This document shows, in pieces, positions 562-48,038 of a stretch of DNA of 64,000 nucleotides. How positions within the stretch are numbered: the first letter of the stretch is position 1; each line of letters starts with the position of its first letter. Below the pieces are notes generated by a model, which was not told the DNA's origin, did not search any database, and saw only the letters and a program-made list of their open reading frames with translations. The stretch is from an uncultured bacterium. Lineage in GTDB: Bacteria > DRYD01. Made by a program: the position numbers and the translations under genes. Location: assembly GCA_937139605.1 (NCBI GenBank), contig CAKZQG010000027.1:4493-68492 (forward strand), in the 5' to 3' direction.

Positions 562-3500
562 TTAGTTAGCTACTAATATACCTCCAGATTTTTCTAATTT
601 ATTTGAAGGTTTATAATATTCATAAATTTTAGAAGAAGGAATTCTTACTTTTAATGGATAATTAGCTCTAATTTCATAACTAAAATTAATATCACTATCA
701 ATTTTATCAAAGTAAATAATAATTTGATTATATGTTAATTCATAATTTTTTATAACTCCTTTTTGTTTTAATTGATCTAATTTATCAGTAATAACGGAAA
801 ACCCTGGAGGAATCCCTAAATCTAATACAACCATTTCCAAAGCCCCCTTAATTAACTTCTTTATACTAACATTTACAACTATAATATCATTCTCTTTTAT
901 ATTAGTTCTATCGTAATTTACAATAATATCTAACTCTTTTAAATTATTAGAAACCTTATCAAAAGGTAAATACTGATAATATACTAAATCATAATATAAA
1001 CTATCCCCATTAGTTTTAAGATAATTTTTACCATCTCTTAAATACGTTGTTAAATCAATAATTTTATAAGCTAACTCATCTTTTGTAAAACTAATATTTA
1101 TAGATTTATCATTAATATTAATGATAGCATTTTTAGGTTGATTGTAAGAAGCAGAATAAAGCTCAAAATAAAAAATAGCTTTTAAAGCCATAATAGTAGG
1201 TTGTGTAGAATACCATAAACCGTTATCTGATTTCGAATTAATTAAAAATTTTATCATTTTATAAGCGTAATTCATATATGAAGAATCTTTTAATTGATTT
1301 ATATTTATTTTTGATAATTTAATAAAAGCTAAAGCAATATTAGCAGTAGTTTCTATAGAAGAAGTATTTAGATCCCCATAGAAAAACGTTCCCTGATTTA
1401 TCCCCTCAAAAAATATAGTATCATCTTTATTTTTTGCTCTATTTATTAATTCTTCTTTAATAATTATTATTTTTTCAATAGCTTTATGGTAATTTTTAGT
1501 CTCAAAGCCCATTAAATTACTATTTATAACATAATTAATTAGCGAATTAAAAATAAAAGACAAAGTATAGTTATCAATTTGTTTAATATCTTTAATATTA
1601 TCTATTATAAACTTTACAGAATTATCTATTTTAGAATTTTTTAGTATAGAAGGATCATTTTCTAATAAGGCATCAAGAATATAAGCGGTAGTAGTAATTT
1701 TAGATTTTTGAATATTTTGCCAAACCTCTTGATGGAGAAAAGTTTTATCAGGCTCCCAGGAACCATCCCCTAACTGCTGATTTAATAAAAACTCCTTTGT
1801 CCTTCTAATTAAATCCTCATCAACAAATACAACGTCTTTCATATCTTTAAATTCTTTTAAACCGAAAGCTGTTAAAACTTTATTAGCAGGTTTATCTCCG
1901 AACCAAGAAAATCCGCCGCCTTCTACCTCAAAAGTTAATAACCTTTGATAACCTATAGTTATATAATAGTTAGCTTTCATAATTATATCAGGTTTTGAGA
2001 ACCCTTTTTGCTTTAAATACTTTAAAATTAAAACATTAGGATAATTAACAGAACTAGTTTGTTCAAAGCATCCATAGGGCATAGCTAAAAGCTTATCTAA
2101 ACCATTAAGAACTTGACTAAATAAAGCAGGATAAACAACTAAGTAAGCTCCCTTACCCTCACCATTAACTACAAAATCTATATTACTATTTCCACTAAAA
2201 CTGCTTACATTTTGAACATATTGACCATAGGGAACAACTTCTATCTCTTTTTTTATAGCATCCTTTAAATTAGTATCTTTAGAATAAGCAAGAATAGTTA
2301 AATTATTTTTCCCAACTTTAACAGCTTTTATTCTAAAATAAACTTTATCAATCCCCTTAGATTCAATTACTATATTCTTTTGATTACTATCTAACAACTC
2401 AAACCAATCCTCTTTGTTAATAACTAAATTAACATTTAATTTTTTATCAGTGTAATTATAAATAATAACAGGGATAGATATTTCATCATTTTTAGTTAAG
2501 AATAATGGTAAATTAACATCTATAAAGAACTCTTGAAAAGTTTTAATATCTAATATTTTATCCGCAATATTTCCATTATTATCAATAGCTAATAAACTAA
2601 CTTTCCAGTTAGTAATACTATCAGGTAATTTTAAAAACAAGGTTTTATTTGAATCAATTATATTAGAATAAAAAGTTTCTGGGAAATATTGCCTTAAATA
2701 AGATAAATCCTGGTTATTATTAGTATCAATTTTTTTAAGATTTTCAGTACTTTTAAATTGTGGAGCTCCGATTTCTAAAGCTCTAACAAAGCTTTCTTCA
2801 AAAATAATTCTCTTATTATATTTATAAAATTTATAATAATCATCAGGATAAACTAAATCATCAGAGGTATTAAATTTTTTATCAAAACCAGCACTTATTA
2901 TTTTTATGCTGTTATCTTTTAATTCAACTTTAAATAAATTCTTCCAACCATCATAAAGATAATCTAAATTACCAAAAGTTTTTAACAAATCATAAGGGAC
3001 AACTTTAAATCTATAATAATAATTACTTACCTTCTCATAAGTTTTTATAGCATTGTTTAATGTTAATTCATATTTTTTAGAGAGACTAAAAACTCTAAAA
3101 ACATTATTATCAAATTCTTGTTTTAAACTATTATTATAATCCTTAAGGAAAGCATATTTTAATAAATTATTTTGTTCATTTATTATGAAATCAATATAAT
3201 TATGAGCTTCATATTTAGGAGTTAATAGTTCTTGAACAAGAGATAAATAGAGTTTAAGCAACTCTGGAGTTTTATTAGCTAAATACAAAACTGCTTCATC
3301 TACTATATCAATTAAAACCTTTGAATCAACTTGTTTATTACCTAAAACCGTATTTATTGTTAATTCTAAATTATCTTTTGGTTTGTAAATATTTTTATTA
3401 GTTTTAGTTATTATTTTAAAGTTATCATTTTTTTCAACAATTATTGATTTTATATTATCAACAAAAAACCCCCTTTCATTAATATAATAAGCCCTAATAA

Positions 3501-5058
3501 ATAAATTACCAGAATAATTTAAATTAAATGAATAATTAGCTTTTTTATTAACTTTAATTGTATCAGTAAATAAAGTAATATATCCACTATCTGTTTTCAG
3601 ATTTAATTCTAAATAAACATCTCTTAAATTATTTAAAATTATTTCTAGATTAGCTTTATCTCCTACTTTATATAAAACCTTATCTAAATTTAAAAAAATA
3701 AAATCATCTACATTATCATTTATATATAACCTTTTGGTAAAGTTTGATTTTAAATTTCTATTTAAATCTATAATTTCATAATCAAAATAAATTTCATTTT
3801 TATCAGGCTTATAAGTAAAACTTAAAGTATTACCTTTAACTTCAAAAGTTTTCTTAAAAGGCTTATTAAAAATTACTTTAAAATTATTGTCAATTTTAGC
3901 GCTTTCTGGATAATAAAAAACACATAAAAAATTATTTTCAACATTTAAAATAATTTCATTTTCAGGAACTATATCAGAGATAATATCATTAGAATATACA
4001 TTAAATATAAAATCCTTAGTTTCGATTTGATTAGCTTTATCTTTAGCGGTAATAGTTAATTTTAAAAGTCCTTTATCTTTATCTATACCTGTTAAGTAAT
4101 TAGGAACTTTGAGGTTAAAGATATATTTCCCATTTTTGTCTGTTTTCCCATTAATTGAATAAAGTTTATAAAATTGCGCATCAAAAGAAAATACATCTAT
4201 ATTTATATAAGCTTCTACTTTTTTTCCAAAAAAATAACTTAAATCCAGTTCCATTTGATAATTTCTATTTATAACTAAGTAATTTTGATTAGTTTTTAAT
4301 TCAATTTTAAACTTAGGTAAAGTATATCTATCTACTTCAAAATTAACAGTAGATATTACGTCGTTATCTTTTTTTAAATTTATTTTATAAGTTCCTAAGT
4401 TAATTAAAGAAGATAAATTATATTCAAAGAATAGAGTTCCCCACTTATCTGTTTTTATTTTTTTATATTCTAATTTATTTCCTTTAGGATCTAATATTTC
4501 AAGAATAAAATTATCACTTATAGGTTTAAAAATATTATTTATTTGTTTTAAAGTAATAATTTTTATAAATACTTTCTGACCAGGTTGATAAATTGGTTTA
4601 TCAAGAGTTATTATAGCTTTATAGTTTTTAATAATATTAAAAGATAGCCTCTCTTGATTATTTCCTATTTTAGCAATTAATTCTAAATTTTTCTGATCAT
4701 TTATATTAAAATCATTTTTACTTTTTAAATTTTTAAATAAATCTTTATTAATATTTATTAAAGCTAAACCTTTAGAATTAGTTTTAGTTTTATAAATTAT
4801 ATTATCTTTATAAAACAAAGAAATATCAATATTAGCAATATCTTTAATATCTTTATCTTTAAATATAAAAGTACTTATTTTTAATAGATTTTGATTATCT
4901 ATATCAATATTTTTTGGATATTCTATAGTATATTCAAAATCAGGTAATGAATTTCCTTTTAAGACACTAAAAACAAAAAAACTAAGAAATACAAAGAAAA
5001 AAATAAATAAATATCTTTTAAAAACAATAGCTTTAAAAATAGATCTAAAAAAATTCAT
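562..5058 (-). CDS. Bacterial alpha-2-macroglobulin family protein with thioester
   Basis: A 1498-residue envelope protein. An N-terminal hydrophobic segment (about residues 14-36) follows basic residues and has no lipobox cysteine, so it probably anchors the protein as a signal-anchor. Beta-rich MG domains follow, including the typical DKPIYQPGQKVFIKI at about 150. The thioester motif YGCFEQTSS (Cys997, Glu999, Gln1000) starts the helical thioester domain, which contains GDGSWEPDKT-type repeats, and a receptor-binding-like beta domain ends the chain. In the family the thioester traps attacking proteases covalently in the periplasm. E. coli YfhM is encoded next to the peptidoglycan synthase pbpC; no such partner is visible here. 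The start is supported by AAGGGGG about 7 nt upstream. The family is certain, the target proteases are unknown. Confidence 0.92.
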   Translation of the reverse strand: MNFFRSIFKAIVFKRYLFIFFFVFLSFFVFSVLKGNSLPDFEYTIEYPKNIDIDNQNLLKISTFIFKDKDIKDIANIDISLFYKDNIIYKTKTNSKGLALININKDLFKNLKSKNDFNINDQKNLELIAKIGNNQERLSFNIIKNYKAIITLDKPIYQPGQKVFIKIITLKQINNIFKPISDNFILEILDPKGNKLEYKKIKTDKWGTLFFEYNLSSLINLGTYKINLKKDNDVISTVNFEVDRYTLPKFKIELKTNQNYLVINRNYQMELDLSYFFGKKVEAYINIDVFSFDAQFYKLYSINGKTDKNGKYIFNLKVPNYLTGIDKDKGLLKLTITAKDKANQIETKDFIFNVYSNDIISDIVPENEIILNVENNFLCVFYYPESAKIDNNFKVIFNKPFKKTFEVKGNTLSFTYKPDKNEIYFDYEIIDLNRNLKSNFTKRLYINDNVDDFIFLNLDKVLYKVGDKANLEIILNNLRDVYLELNLKTDSGYITLFTDTIKVNKKANYSFNLNYSGNLFIRAYYINERGFFVDNIKSIIVEKNDNFKIITKTNKNIYKPKDNLELTINTVLGNKQVDSKVLIDIVDEAVLYLANKTPELLKLYLSLVQELLTPKYEAHNYIDFIINEQNNLLKYAFLKDYNNSLKQEFDNNVFRVFSLSKKYELTLNNAIKTYEKVSNYYYRFKVVPYDLLKTFGNLDYLYDGWKNLFKVELKDNSIKIISAGFDKKFNTSDDLVYPDDYYKFYKYNKRIIFEESFVRALEIGAPQFKSTENLKKIDTNNNQDLSYLRQYFPETFYSNIIDSNKTLFLKLPDSITNWKVSLLAIDNNGNIADKILDIKTFQEFFIDVNLPLFLTKNDEISIPVIIYNYTDKKLNVNLVINKEDWFELLDSNQKNIVIESKGIDKVYFRIKAVKVGKNNLTILAYSKDTNLKDAIKKEIEVVPYGQYVQNVSSFSGNSNIDFVVNGEGKGAYLVVYPALFSQVLNGLDKLLAMPYGCFEQTSSVNYPNVLILKYLKQKGFSKPDIIMKANYYITIGYQRLLTFEVEGGGFSWFGDKPANKVLTAFGLKEFKDMKDVVFVDEDLIRRTKEFLLNQQLGDGSWEPDKTFLHQEVWQNIQKSKITTTAYILDALLENDPSILKNSKIDNSVKFIIDNIKDIKQIDNYTLSFIFNSLINYVINSNLMGFETKNYHKAIEKIIIIKEELINRAKNKDDTIFFEGINQGTFFYGDLNTSSIETTANIALAFIKLSKININQLKDSSYMNYAYKMIKFLINSKSDNGLWYSTQPTIMALKAIFYFELYSASYNQPKNAIININDKSINISFTKDELAYKIIDLTTYLRDGKNYLKTNGDSLYYDLVYYQYLPFDKVSNNLKELDIIVNYDRTNIKENDIIVVNVSIKKLIKGALEMVVLDLGIPPGFSVITDKLDQLKQKGVIKNYELTYNQIIIYFDKIDSDINFSYEIRANYPLKVRIPSSKIYEYYKPSNKLEKSGGILVAN

Positions 5059-42808: not shown

Positions 42809-43111
42809 CTAAGGTAAGAAGGGGATGTCACTACCTTGATCCTCATCATGTATACTACCATATATGATAGTTACCCTGTAATAATTTTTATCATATCCTC
42901 CGGCATCAGATATTAGTTCGACTTTAATATCTATTATTTTAATATCATAGTATGGATAATCCCATTCAAATTGTTTTATGGCTTTTCTTATTGCTTCATT
43001 TCTATTCCAAGCTTCTATAAAATAAACAGCTTTCCTTTCTTTTCTAACTGTCTTACTTTCATTAAATCTAGTGTTTACTATGTGGTTTAAATTTGTAGAT
43101 TTTACTAGCAT
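42809..43111 (-). CDS. Small protein of unknown function, divergent from the graspetide precursor
   Basis: A 100-residue hydrophilic protein that I do not recognise. It has a basic N-terminal half (FNESKTVRKERKAVYFIEAW), a predicted helix NRNEAIRKAIKQFEWDYP and beta-like stretches IKIIDIKVELISDAGG and YYRVTIIYGSIHD, an alpha-beta pattern reminiscent of small ferredoxin-like or DUF folds. It has no signal peptide. Its ribosome site AAGGAGGTGTCGG is as strong as those of the TTGTAA-box genes and of the precursor at 43305, from which it is divergently transcribed across 193 bp. Function in the RiPP locus (leader binding, immunity or regulation) is possible but only by position. Confidence 0.7.
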   Translation of the reverse strand: MLVKSTNLNHIVNTRFNESKTVRKERKAVYFIEAWNRNEAIRKAIKQFEWDYPYYDIKIIDIKVELISDAGGYDKNYYRVTIIYGSIHDEDQGSDIPFLP

Positions 43112-43304: not shown

Positions 43305-43793
43305 ATGAAAGATATTAATTTTACAACAAGTGTTCAAGAAACAGGAGAAATGAAAAGATATACTACATTAGCAGTAGGAGAAGAAGGAGGTCGAGATAAA
43401 CCAATACAATGGTCAACATTTGCAGTAGGTGAAGAAGGAGATAACCGAGATAACCCCACACGATTTACAATTTTTGCAAGAGAACTAGGGGAAACAACAT
43501 TTGCAGTTGGTGAAGAAGGTGACGATAATATTAGAGATATACCGCCTATAAATAATGATTATCATATGTTATTAGTATTAATAAAACAACTGTTAGATAA
43601 AATAAGAAGAAATATAGGTATAGGGGTAGGTATAAATCCTTCACCTATAGCTCAAGATCCTATAATTAGTGGCCCACCACCAGTGAAAGGTAGACCAGTA
43701 CCAGGGCAAAATTACACCGATAGCATGCCTAGAAGTATGTCAGCTAATAATTCAACAAGAATAGAACACGCTTATCTCCCAGAAGCTGAATAA
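43305..43793 (+). CDS. Graspetide (omega-ester peptide) precursor, plesiocin-like, multi-core
   Basis: 162 residues. Three core motifs of the form [T/S]TxxxxEE are present: TTLAVGEE (20-27), STFAVGEE (37-44) and TTFAVGEE (64-71). A fourth, TIFARELGE (55-63), is degenerate. The units share the trailer G-[G/D]...RD-x-P (RDKP, RDNP, RDIP), so they arose by duplication. TTxxxxEE is the plesiocin-type core, in which an ATP-grasp ligase joins Thr hydroxyls to Glu carboxylates; an ATP-grasp gene lies two genes downstream. Unusual: only 19 residues precede the first core, and about 85 residues follow the last, including a helix (YHMLLVLIKQLLDKIRRNIG) and a Pro-rich tail. There is no double-Gly or signal sequence, and no protease or exporter adjacent. 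Strong GGAGGTG ribosome site. Confidence 0.82.
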   Translation: MKDINFTTSVQETGEMKRYTTLAVGEEGGRDKPIQWSTFAVGEEGDNRDNPTRFTIFARELGETTFAVGEEGDDNIRDIPPINNDYHMLLVLIKQLLDKIRRNIGIGVGINPSPIAQDPIISGPPPVKGRPVPGQNYTDSMPRSMSANNSTRIEHAYLPEAE

Positions 43794-43849
43794 TTTTTAT
43801 AAAATATTAAGAAATAATCTTATAAATTACAAAAAGGAGAATATTAAAA

Positions 43850-44380
43850 ATGTCTAGTGAAAATATATGCATATTATGTACTAATTTAATTGAAATTGAA
43901 GAAGATGATACTTTTTATTGTGCAGATTGTAATTTTAGATGGGAATACAAGTTAAAAGGAAATTCTCCTTTTTTAAATCAATTACTAAAATTAATAGAGC
44001 TGTATAATAATAATGAAACTTCGATAGATTTAGTACATATAGCACTGAGTAATTGGATTAATGAATTAGATTTATCTATACAAGATTCAAATACAAGAAT
44101 TAACATCCCTTTTCCAAGTATTATAAAAAAAGCAATAAAATATTCTTTATTATCACTAAAAGACTTAAAAAATAGTTTAGAAAATATTGACATAGAAAAA
44201 ATAAAGGAATTTAATTTTCAAGATATTATAAAAAACGATGAAAAAGTTTTAAAAGTATTTAATCAAGTTTTTAAATTATTAAATAAAATTCAAGATGATA
44301 AGTACTATATTTTACAGGAATATAGAAAAGAAAAGATAGAAATAGAAAATATCAAAATAGAGGAATTAGATTATGATTAA
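43850..44380 (+). CDS. Zinc-ribbon protein in the graspetide operon, function unknown
   Basis: 176 residues. The N-terminus has a CxxC...CxxC ribbon: ICILCTNLIEIEEDDTFYCADC (Cys pairs about 6-9 and 23-26), rubredoxin/zinc-ribbon-like. The rest (about 35-176) is predicted all-helical with no membrane segment and no family that I recognise. It begins 56 bp after the precursor, with AAAAAGGAG before the ATG, and its last codons overlap the ATP-grasp start by 8 bp, so the two are translationally coupled. The coupling suggests a stoichiometric partner, for example a leader-binding or scaffold protein for the ligase; this is inference from position. Confidence 0.72.
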   Translation: MSSENICILCTNLIEIEEDDTFYCADCNFRWEYKLKGNSPFLNQLLKLIELYNNNETSIDLVHIALSNWINELDLSIQDSNTRINIPFPSIIKKAIKYSLLSLKDLKNSLENIDIEKIKEFNFQDIIKNDEKVLKVFNQVFKLLNKIQDDKYYILQEYRKEKIEIENIKIEELDYD

Positions 44381-45308
44381 AAAGGAGAATAAAAAAATTA
44401 TATTTATAGCGGATGGAGAGGATTATAATGCAAATTATATTTATGAAAAGACAAAAGAAAAAGGAATAAATACTATTTTTATAGATACTAGAAAATTTCC
44501 GCTAGAATATGAATCACTTATATATTTAACAGATGGAATAAACAAAGTTAAAATGGGAAATTATATAGGAATAGATTCCAATTTTTCTTTTTTCATAAGA
44601 GCTATTTTTATTAATGCTTTTAATCCTTTTAATTACTCATCAGATGAAAAAAAATTCCATAGTTATAGAAATTACTATTCTTTTTTATATTCATTGGTTA
44701 ATATAGCTGATTTAAACGGCGCAAAAGTAGTTAACTCTCCTTCAACATTCTGGATACATTTTTATAAACCATATACATACGCTTTAGCTAGGAAATTTGG
44801 CATGAAAATACCAATTACTTTTGTTTCAAATAAAATTAGAAGTATAATAAAATTTTATAAAGAAAATAAAAACAAAGAATTAGTTATAAAACCAGTAGCG
44901 GGTGGGGATACAGTAAAACTATTAAATCAAGAACAATTGGAAAAAATTAAATCTACCCTAGATTATAAGACTTATATTATACAAGAAAGAATACCTGGTC
45001 AAGAAATTAGAATATTTCTAATAGGGTACAAAACTATTATAAGTTTACATTTAATAACTGACGACTTAGATTATAGAGAAAAACAAAATATACAAGAAAT
45101 AAAAGTAATAGATATCCCTAATTCATTAGCTAATTCAATTATAAAATTCTCAAGATATATAGGTTTGAAATTTTGTGCTTTAGATTTTAAAAGAATAGGT
45201 AATGAATATTATTTTTTAGATATAAACCCTGCTCCAATGTTTGTTGGTTTTGAATTAAAATCAGGATTTCCTATAACCGATAAAATAATAAATTATTTAT
45301 CTAAATAA
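44373..45308 (+). CDS. ATP-grasp ligase, graspetide synthetase type (MvdC/MvdD/PsnB-like)
   Basis: 311 residues. A pre-ATP-grasp domain (1-110) begins KKIIFIADGEDYNANYIYEK. The ATP-grasp fold has LVIKPVAGGDTVKLL (Lys173), YIIQERIPGQEIRIFLIG (Glu205, Arg213), CALDFKRIGNEYYFLDINPAP (Asp271, Asp283, Asn285) and ends GFELKSGFPITDKIINYL. The DINP...TG-x-PI-type close resembles macrocyclases of the microviridin/plesiocin class and differs from glutathione synthetases or RimK. Together with the TTxxxxEE precursor it should form side-chain esters (or amides) using ATP. Overlaps the zinc-ribbon gene by 8 bp; AGAGGA lies 8 nt before the ATG. A stand-alone RimK-like ligase is the alternative. Confidence 0.82.
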   Translation: MIKKENKKIIFIADGEDYNANYIYEKTKEKGINTIFIDTRKFPLEYESLIYLTDGINKVKMGNYIGIDSNFSFFIRAIFINAFNPFNYSSDEKKFHSYRNYYSFLYSLVNIADLNGAKVVNSPSTFWIHFYKPYTYALARKFGMKIPITFVSNKIRSIIKFYKENKNKELVIKPVAGGDTVKLLNQEQLEKIKSTLDYKTYIIQERIPGQEIRIFLIGYKTIISLHLITDDLDYREKQNIQEIKVIDIPNSLANSIIKFSRYIGLKFCALDFKRIGNEYYFLDINPAPMFVGFELKSGFPITDKIINYLSK

Positions 45309-45412: not shown

Positions 45413-46282
45413 ATGATAAAATATAAAAAAGGATTTTATTTATATTTATGGCTTACTTTATTTACTTTATTCATATCTTTTTTTAGTATAATCTTATTTA
45501 ATTATGTTTCTTCAGATATAAGAACAACAAAAGAACTAATAAGAAAATCTAAAAGAGCTTCAGACTTAAAAAGTTTAATACTAATAGCTACAAATATATA
45601 CCGCCAAGACTACACAAAAGATACTGGTAATATCCCATATAAAGGGAAAAGCTATAAATATCAAATAAAAAATATAAACGGACAGCATATTTACGTAAAA
45701 ATATTAGATAATAATAATTCTTTATTAGCTAAAGCAATAGTTTTATACAAAATCAACATTGGCAATTATAATAAATTAGCTACAAATTATAATAATTATT
45801 ACTTTAACAATAGTTCATACTATTCTAACACAACTTTTCTAGCTGATAGGATAGATATAGAACAAACAAATATAAAAATATTTAATAACTTACTATTAAA
45901 ATATAATACTCAACCATATAGGGTAACATTTGATTCATATGGAAATCCAATATATACTCAAATAACAGATAAAGAGATAACTAAAAACTATACAGAAAAA
46001 CTATATAGAGTAGATTTAGATCCAATAACATATTATAATAATTTTTTGGCAATAGTTATGCAACAATTATATGAAACTCCAAATAATGATGTAGAATTAA
46101 ATACAAAAGGAGCATTAATAGTTAAAAAATCAAATTCCGAACCGACGATACTATTTAAACCTGATGAAGCAAATCATAATAACCAAAAAATAGAAATTAA
46201 GTATAATGACGATTTAAAAGCTAGCTTTACTTTAGTAAGATATCCTCAAAATTTTGAGTTCAATAAAAAAATGATACTTTAA
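45413..46282 (+). CDS. Pilin-like or secretion membrane protein, 5' part of a frameshifted gene
   Basis: 289 residues. KKGFYLYLWLTLFTLFISFFSI resembles a prepilin signal (Gly-Phe cleavage site, long hydrophobic stalk) but lacks the Glu at +5, as in some minor GspK-like pilins. The rest is an Asn/Tyr-rich beta-type domain. It ends FEFNKKMIL at a TAA in an A7 tract (46265-46271). The frame -1 to it is open from 46267 and continues for 234 codons in similar protein, so the real product is probably one chain of about 520 residues spanning both. GGGAGAG precedes the ATG. It follows the graspetide operon by 104 bp and has similarity in position to the GspF gene at 47025. Confidence 0.65.
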   Translation: MIKYKKGFYLYLWLTLFTLFISFFSIILFNYVSSDIRTTKELIRKSKRASDLKSLILIATNIYRQDYTKDTGNIPYKGKSYKYQIKNINGQHIYVKILDNNNSLLAKAIVLYKINIGNYNKLATNYNNYYFNNSSYYSNTTFLADRIDIEQTNIKIFNNLLLKYNTQPYRVTFDSYGNPIYTQITDKEITKNYTEKLYRVDLDPITYYNNFLAIVMQQLYETPNNDVELNTKGALIVKKSNSEPTILFKPDEANHNNQKIEIKYNDDLKASFTLVRYPQNFEFNKKMIL

Positions 46283-46971
46283 TAACTAATGATAGGCAAT
46301 TAGCAGCTGAAATTACAAACTTGATAAATGATAATAGAAACCGAGATACTTTTACAATTACCCTTAATCCTTCTTCAAATTACGTATATAAATTTCTAAA
46401 AAGAGGAAACAACTACATAATTTGCAAAACGCAAAACTCTTTAATATATATATTAGTGTTCGCAAATCCCATTATAGGAACTGATAATAATCTATCTACA
46501 AACAATGGAATAATAAAAGAAAAAATATACTTAATAACAGACAAGAGTTATTTTACCACAATAAAAGGACATATCCTTTATGAAGAAACTGCTAATAATA
46601 TAAGTGATAATAACTTAATAATCCCTACTGAAATTACTCCAGATAATATAAAAGTTAGTAATAATAACAATTTATTTACTTTAGTAACAAATAATATAAA
46701 TATAGATGGTTCTAATTTTAATGATGCTAATCCTTATATAATACTTTGTGGTAAATATGTAGCAATGTATAATAATAATTCTAAATTATCATTAATTAAT
46801 AGTGGTTCTATAGATAAAATGTATATCTATGGAGGAATACATAGTTCTATTTCTGAAACTACAGGATTAAAAGAATACTATATAAATGATAAGAGATTAG
46901 CATATATTGACCCACTTGATTTACTCAATATCCATACTGATAGAATAATAGCAATTGATTTTAACTATTAA
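46267..46971 (+). CDS. 3' part of the frameshifted pilin-like gene
   Basis: Frame -1 relative to 45413-46282. It begins at the slip site and continues NDTLITNDRQLAAEITNLIN, then a beta-rich domain (TFTITLNPSSNYVYKFLKRG) to HTDRIIAIDFNY. There is no ATG at its start, and the first TTG (46321) would remove the segment that joins it to the upstream part. Composition and style match the upstream half. It is either a broken gene, rescued by slippage on the A7 tract, or split by a sequencing error in that tract. I cannot decide from one sequence. Confidence 0.6.
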   Translation, partial: KNDTLITNDRQLAAEITNLINDNRNRDTFTITLNPSSNYVYKFLKRGNNYIICKTQNSLIYILVFANPIIGTDNNLSTNNGIIKEKIYLITDKSYFTTIKGHILYEETANNISDNNLIIPTEITPDNIKVSNNNNLFTLVTNNINIDGSNFNDANPYIILCGKYVAMYNNNSKLSLINSGSIDKMYIYGGIHSSISETTGLKEYYINDKRLAYIDPLDLLNIHTDRIIAIDFNY

Positions 46972-47024
46972 TTACTAATTAATTTTAAAAGGTTTTTTTT
47001 TATTATTTTCAAAATATAAAATAT

Positions 47025-48038
47025 ATGCTAAATGATCAAGAAAGACTAAATTTCTTGATGATATTTAGAACTTTGATAGAAAGCGGAATCCCATTAGGAT
47101 ACTCTTTAGATATATGTATTCAAACTTTTAAAAAATATGAAAAAAATTTTATTAATTTAAAAAAGCTGGTTACAACAGGAAGCACCTTATCTAATGCATT
47201 TCAAAAAGCCAAAATTCTCGATGGAATTGAATTGTCAATATTAAAAATCGGGGAGCAAACAGAAAATCTACCTTATGTTATAAAAAAAATAGAAGCAATA
47301 CTTCAAAGAAAAATAGAAACTAAAAATAATTTAACAAAATCCTTAATTTATCCTGCTTTGTTTTTATTAGTTATAAGTTTTATATTATTAATTTTTAAGA
47401 ATTTAATAATTCCTTCGTTTAAAAATTTATACATAGATTTAGGAATCTCTGAGCCTTTAACTTTTAAATTACTTAGTATCCTAACATCCATATTCGATTT
47501 AAAATTATTAGTTTTTTTTATTATTACAATTTTAATATTTTATTTTATTTTAAAAAACCTAATAGTATTCAATAAAAAAGAAATTTATAATTATGTATTT
47601 AAAGTACCCATTTTAGGTAATGCCATATACAATGCTTATTTAAGTTTAGTATTAAACTTATGGGCAGTTAGTTTAGAAAGTGGATTAAATTTTTTAAATA
47701 CTTTTTTGATTTTAAAACATGAAACTGTTGAACCATTTTCAACATTCTTTTCTAAATTATACGATAAAGCTAAAAAAGGGGAATTAATAGAAATACCGAA
47801 TTATAATGAAGCTTTTAAACCTATGTACATAAAACAGATAAACTCAGGATTAGAGAGTGGAGAATTACCTAAAATACTAAAAAAATTAGCAGAGTTAGCT
47901 GAACTTGAAGCTAATACTTCATTAGATACAATAAATAAACTACTAGAGCCCATAATGTCAGCATTAGCTGGAATTATTGCTGCAGTTATTGCTTTGTCCA
48001 TATTTTCCCCTATCATGTTCCTAATTAAAAGCCTTTAA
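47025..48038 (+). CDS. Type II secretion/type IV pilus inner-membrane protein (GspF/PilC-like)
   Basis: 337 residues with two T2SSF modules: FLMIFRTLIESGIPLGYSLDIC...ELSILKIGEQTENLPYVIKKIE in the first and NLWAVSLESGLNFLNTFLILK...YIKQINSGLESGELPKILKKLAELAE in the second. Membrane spans follow each (about 110-130, 155-180) and the last 25 residues (LAGIIAAVIALSIFSPIMFLI). The platform protein of pilus or pseudopilus assembly. It is about 60 residues shorter than typical PilC at the N-terminus. No assembly ATPase (PilB/GspE) or prepilin peptidase was found nearby; pilin-like genes are immediately upstream and at 39722. Confidence 0.9.
   Translation: MLNDQERLNFLMIFRTLIESGIPLGYSLDICIQTFKKYEKNFINLKKLVTTGSTLSNAFQKAKILDGIELSILKIGEQTENLPYVIKKIEAILQRKIETKNNLTKSLIYPALFLLVISFILLIFKNLIIPSFKNLYIDLGISEPLTFKLLSILTSIFDLKLLVFFIITILIFYFILKNLIVFNKKEIYNYVFKVPILGNAIYNAYLSLVLNLWAVSLESGLNFLNTFLILKHETVEPFSTFFSKLYDKAKKGELIEIPNYNEAFKPMYIKQINSGLESGELPKILKKLAELAELEANTSLDTINKLLEPIMSALAGIIAAVIALSIFSPIMFLIKSL

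Follow-up and report, generated by a model that had tools for sequence, protein, structure and literature searches.

A multicore graspetide gene cluster in Candidatus Calescibacteriota with plesiocin-like cores, a putative C-terminal follower and a putative zinc-ribbon partner

The window, a 64-kb stretch of a 68-kb contig from a 1.88-Mb genome (88.5% complete), carries a three-gene operon at positions 43305–45308 of its forward strand. The first gene encodes a graspetide precursor of 162 aa (43305..43793, +), the second a 176-aa protein combining a zinc ribbon (CxxC...CxxC) with a helical part (43850..44380, +), and the third a 311-aa PsnB-like ATP-grasp graspetide synthetase (44373..45308, +) identified by profile, PDB, fold and tree matches. 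A gap of 56 nt separates the precursor from the zinc-ribbon gene, whose start is preceded by AAGGAG, and the zinc-ribbon and ligase reading frames overlap by 8 nt. The window genome and its relatives belong to Candidatus Calescibacteriota (alias Calescamantes), a rare phylum reported from hot springs with a temperature of about 80 °C (PMC4791363). Our sample of this phylum comprises seven genomes, all incomplete (MAG completeness 71–90%), in which the ligase is also encoded by three other MAGs (G002, G003, and G005) and the precursor and zinc-ribbon pair by two of these (G002 and G003). The operon, recognized as such in the initial annotation, is therefore not an accident of assembly. In G003, the precursor and zinc-ribbon genes lie together while the ligase is found on a different contig. 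A DNA polymerase delta-subunit-like gene is syntenic with the pair in G002 and G003, though not in the window genome. In G001, a member of the same genus as the window genome and 87% complete, neither the ligase nor the zinc-ribbon gene nor the core pattern was found, so the system is either patchy even within a genus or located in unassembled parts. Upstream of the precursor in the window is a divergently oriented gene for a 100-aa orphan protein without a family match (42809–43111, −).

The precursor contains three [ST]TxAVGEE cores within residues 1–71, followed by a long C-terminal tail. These are TTLAVGEE (residues 20–27; 43362..43385, +), STFAVGEE, in which Ser replaces Thr1 (residues 37–44; 43413..43436, +), and TTFAVGEE (residues 64–71; 43494..43517, +), exactly the set described initially, and both shuffling and a phylum-wide pattern search agree with it. 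Shuffling the precursor protein 100,000 times never produced three motifs; a fraction of 7e-5 of the shuffles contained two and 0.8% contained one, and among ORFs of at least 60 aa in the window the [ST]TxxxxEE motif is confined to the precursor. The TxAVGEE DNA pattern has five matches in the seven Calescibacteriota genomes, three in the window precursor and two in that of G003, and a reversed control pattern has zero matches in the same genomes. Relatives retain the precursor, as a 96-aa homologue in G003 (L020) and a 132-aa homologue in G002 (L011:7349–7747, −), contrary to what the initial annotation named as one possible refutation, namely homologues without a TTxxxxEE precursor. The G003 protein has TTxxxxEE repeats as in the window, and those of G002 are reduced to ITLSVGEA and FTHAVGED, having lost Thr1 and replaced Glu8 with Ala or Asp while retaining Thr2 and Glu7. 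By comparison with these, FTIFAREL in the window precursor (43464..43487, +), with Thr2 and Glu7 only, is a possible degenerate core. A search for the core pattern in 386 genomes returned mostly single chance matches beyond the Calescibacteriota and the canonical group-2 loci, as judged from the part of the loci inspected, and no precursor was found in a search of plasmids.

Searching the 386 genomes with a ligase profile recovered, from another phylum, a group-2 cluster of textbook form (L032), whose precursor has the leader KRLFIEELEKP and the cores TTAAKCEE and TTLAVGEE. Canonical clusters L088–L102 comprise 15 ligases in 15 genomes of this second phylum, and precursors could be read beside 11 of them. 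These precursors are 53–86 aa long, have the leader motif [FY]IxxLE 14–19 residues ahead of core 1 and end in tails of 1–12 aa; as the motif was defined on the same 11 proteins, its presence in all of them is by construction, and its absence elsewhere is the test. Their cores are near-identical to those of the window (TTLAVGEE, TTMAVGEE, TTLAIGEE), and the octapeptide of window core 1 recurs unchanged in L088 and L090. Because eleven precursors beside PsnB-like ligases elsewhere carry near-identical cores, the graspetide assignment is strong.

The best PDB match of the window ligase by phmmer is PsnB (7drm, E 2.4e-22), followed by PruB (9bou, 6e-11), MdnC (6e-8), and RimK (at least 5e-4). Among NCBIfam models, TIGR04187 (“ATP-grasp ribosomal peptide maturase”) fits it best, with a score below the curated cut-off, as is also the case for the canonical ligase of L032. 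In a fold search that used an AlphaFold model of low confidence (mean pLDDT 46, against 48 for the zinc-ribbon protein; such models are too weak to be relied on alone), fifteen PsnB chains take the top places. A canonical group-2 profile scores the Calescibacteriota ligases at 103–119 bits, higher than every RimK, LysX, and microviridin-type sequence in the set. In a tree including PsnB, nine canonical group-2 ligases, microviridin-type ligases and RimK/LysX, the four Calescibacteriota ligases form one clade (100/100), split from RimK/LysX with 100% bootstrap support (100/99). A RimK or glutathione-synthetase identity, raised initially as an outcome that would overturn the assignment, is ruled out by the tree and profiles. 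The clade falls outside the group formed by PsnB and the nine canonical group-2 ligases and is placed weakly beside the microviridin side (90/91); forcing it into group 2 costs 7.2 log-likelihood units and is marginally rejected (p-AU 0.0485). We read the Calescibacteriota ligase as a deeply branching graspetide synthetase lineage of its own. No relatives of it were found in IMG/VR viral contigs.

We predict that the ligase would use ATP to activate both Glu side chains in every core and would link these to the pair of Thr/Ser side chains, forming nested esters with the exact Thr–Glu pairing of a plesiocin repeat, that is, an inner Thr2–Glu7 and an outer Thr1–Glu8 bond. The outcome would be three hairpin bicycles on one chain, with six esters and a mass change of −108 Da. 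In plesiocin itself, each repeat is described as carrying two esters in a ring-within-ring hairpin (PMC13097080; PMC12291112). Judging from the precursor and ligase sequences, ester cross-links on the precursor are very likely. The joint loss of Thr1 and Glu8 in both G002 cores is expected from nested Thr1–Glu8 and Thr2–Glu7 esters, and FTIFAREL in the window would be a third case of outer-pair loss.

As a rule, graspetides are modified under the guidance of a leader. The [FY]IxxLE leader motif is nevertheless absent from all three Calescibacteriota precursors, which place 19 (window), 9 (G003), and 39 (G002) residues ahead of the first core and extend 91, 41, and 64 residues, respectively, beyond the last (tails of 41–91 aa vs. 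1–12 aa in the canonical precursors). In each of the three, the most hydrophobic 15-mer begins 10–14 residues past the last core (YHMLLVLIKQLLDKI at 43560..43604, +, in the window; LLQIYIRLLLLYLSQ and ILDLKEIIKKILEEI in the other two), whereas in L032 it begins in the leader. We propose that this hydrophobic, helix-like segment recruits the ligase as a follower, and recognition of a C-terminal follower by the ligase seems to us about evenly balanced between true and false. The three C-terminal tails are not significantly similar to one another in sequence (shuffle p 0.06–0.23), and [SA]FG[RK]V, common to the G002 and G003 tails, is suggestive without reaching significance; the proposal consequently rests on architecture and not on a conserved motif. 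For this reason, and because G002 has a possible leader remnant, we still only infer a follower. A precursor with its leader moved to the C-terminus by design is modified by ThfB, according to a 2026 report (PMC13003496).

The remnant bears on a different explanation, that this is an ordinary leader-dependent graspetide with a shortened and drifted leader, its ligase reading pre-core residues or linkers and its zinc-ribbon protein serving an unrelated role such as regulation. The pre-core stretch of G002 includes QFMESVDGP, faintly resembling the canonical xFIEELExP leader (p 0.11 for the whole N-terminal segment), the precursors of the window and G003 start alike with MKDINF and MNNINL (p 0.0135), and zinc ribbons are frequent in regulators. 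However, the G003 precursor has just 9 residues ahead of its cores, with an in-frame stop shortly upstream of its start, and the motif carried by all 11 canonical precursors on which it was defined occurs in none of the three here. We consider leader dependence unlikely and favor the C-terminal follower.

The zinc-ribbon gene is the next gene after the precursor in all three genomes that have a precursor. Its products (161–176 aa) fall in no Pfam or NCBIfam family when curated cut-offs are applied, and a profile of them finds homologues in three of the 386 genomes, the same three that have the precursor; a fourth match is weak (E 7e-4) and covers the helical part only. No zinc-ribbon homologue lies within 1.5 kb of the canonical group-2 clusters. 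Given that the G003 ligase sits on another contig, the tightest link of the precursor is to the zinc-ribbon gene and not to the ligase, and the gene, treated as incidental in the initial annotation, is in fact the precursor’s most tightly linked partner. A related zinc ribbon is present in a larger Calescibacteriota protein near the pair (G002, L011:4379–5218, −; G003, L020:7213–8144, +; E 4e-4 and 5e-3 in single comparisons), suggesting that the partner may stem from a local duplication. The poor AlphaFold model of the zinc-ribbon protein gave no fold match, and a PDB match of its profile (8etq, k-cTRP5) involves the helical part alone and was taken as chance helix similarity.

We propose that the zinc-ribbon protein may assist as a partner of the substrate or the ligase; that it is needed for modification is, on sequence linkage and analogy, a proposition with an even chance of being right. 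The graspetide synthetase MirB needs the partner protein MirC (PMC13097080). Among distant structural matches of the ligase is a complex of ArgX with LysW, a zinc-ribbon carrier (3vpb, rank 33), and a zinc-ribbon protein can therefore dock on this ligase fold. The same structure might be taken to mean that the ligase and zinc-ribbon protein constitute a LysX/LysW-like amino-group-carrier pair with no graspetide system at all. This is highly improbable: the tree sets the ligase apart from LysX/RimK with full bootstrap support and does not group it with LysX, the zinc-ribbon protein is far from LysW, a protein some 55 aa long that ends in an acidic EDWGE, in both length and lack of a LysW match, no short LysW-type carrier is present, and the TTxxxxEE cores would be left unexplained. 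We rejected this pairing and retain the zinc-ribbon protein as a putative graspetide partner.

The cluster is a real graspetide cluster with plesiocin-like cores, but it is no plain member of the plesiocin group, differing in ligase lineage, layout and partner gene. The initial label “plesiocin-type” accordingly stands for the TTxxxxEE cores and for PsnB as the best solved relative, and fails for a ligase outside the PsnB clade, a missing group-2 leader motif and an inverted layout. Plesiocin group 2 (PsnA2–PsnB of Plesiocystis pacifica) shares the tandem TTxxxxEE cores, the single PsnB-like ligase and the predicted nested Thr–Glu esters; the Calescibacteriota system has its ligase on a separate deep branch, long tails in place of the N-terminal leader motif, a zinc-ribbon partner gene and, in G003, a ligase unlinked from the precursor. 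Microviridin-type ligases (MdnB/MdnC, AMdnB) are likewise ATP-grasp enzymes on the same side of the tree, and AMdnA is a multicore precursor of that type (PMC5934393), but the core motif differs and sequence scores are E 6e-8 or weaker. Rosaritide (MirA/MirB/MirC) also has a strictly co-occurring nonligase partner, of PpiC type, unlike the unrelated zinc-ribbon protein with its putative partner role. The engineered leader-to-follower fuscimiditide (ThfA1/ThfB) has the same order of core first and recognition sequence C-terminal, by design there and naturally here if the follower is real. The Calescibacteriota graspetide group may already be listed in earlier surveys, the literature consulted being its open-access part.

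Other ATP-grasp loci were encountered in the genome set. In G133 (L036), a graspetide-type ATP-grasp ligase (1435–2376, −) adjoins a protein of ∼300 aa (2624–3544, −) with about seven PIMKxRADxPxP repeats, each with Lys and acidic residues, which recalls corallotide, a large Lys-isopeptide graspetide. In the related genomes G111 and G248 (L029:1492–3803 and L030:83–2433), a PsnB-related ATP-grasp gene follows a gene resembling a radical-SAM peptide maturase (CxxxCxxC), the gene ends overlapping; a precursor was not found at these loci.

The operon has neither an exporter nor a protease, as noted at the outset. No C39 peptidase was detected in the seven incomplete Calescibacteriota genomes, the control genomes being positive in 8 of 14 cases, and a C39 exporter encoded elsewhere in the genome was dismissed on this basis. 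Genes resembling a type II secretion/type IV pilus system, with GspF 53% identical, are located at 45413–48038 of the window and at L012:192–2540. Only a few genes separate GspF from the ligase in the window genome as well as in G003/G005, but on opposite sides of the ligase. This proximity, which G002 does not share, hints weakly at a secretion link. Alternatively, and compatibly with the proposed chemistry, the cross-linked chain could remain intact inside the cell as a heat-stable protein stapled by esters, perhaps inhibiting one of the cell’s own proteases. The lack of an exporter or protease in the operon, the lack of C39 peptidases and the embedding of the cores in a larger protein of 96–162 aa would all agree with this. 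Against it, the MAGs are incomplete, graspetide export systems vary and are possibly encoded elsewhere (PMC8939145), and GspF is near the ligase in all but G002. We regard retention of the intact chain as somewhat unlikely.

Characterized graspetides are largely protease inhibitors, and this was stated for all known by 2022 (PMC8939145). By analogy, the product here would most likely be a multivalent serine-protease inhibitor, although we hold protease inhibition itself to be a matter on which opinion could divide equally. A chymotrypsin/elastase-type target would be consistent with the Leu or Phe at the third position of the cores.

The sequences establish the gene content and its conservation, the core motif, the family to which the ligase belongs and the precursor layout. 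On balance, they probably specify a multicore graspetide in which a follower recruits the ligase, the zinc-ribbon protein helps and the product is likely a protease inhibitor, with bonds, roles and activity all predicted. More tentatively, and with less confidence than doubt, we suggest a natural graspetide subfamily of a thermophilic candidate phylum in which a C-terminal follower helix guides the ligase and a zinc-ribbon partner is required to join precursor and ligase. A natural follower-guided graspetide, if true, would show this layout to be one that evolution has employed, and would offer a ready scaffold with N-terminal cores for engineering; the zinc-ribbon partner, if true, would introduce a new type of accessory protein among graspetide synthetases. 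The G002 cores amount to a natural experiment in how the two rings are ordered and coupled. Owing to the hot-spring setting, the system offers a macrocyclase that is heat-stable, as well as a case for testing the survival of ester-linked peptides in heat.
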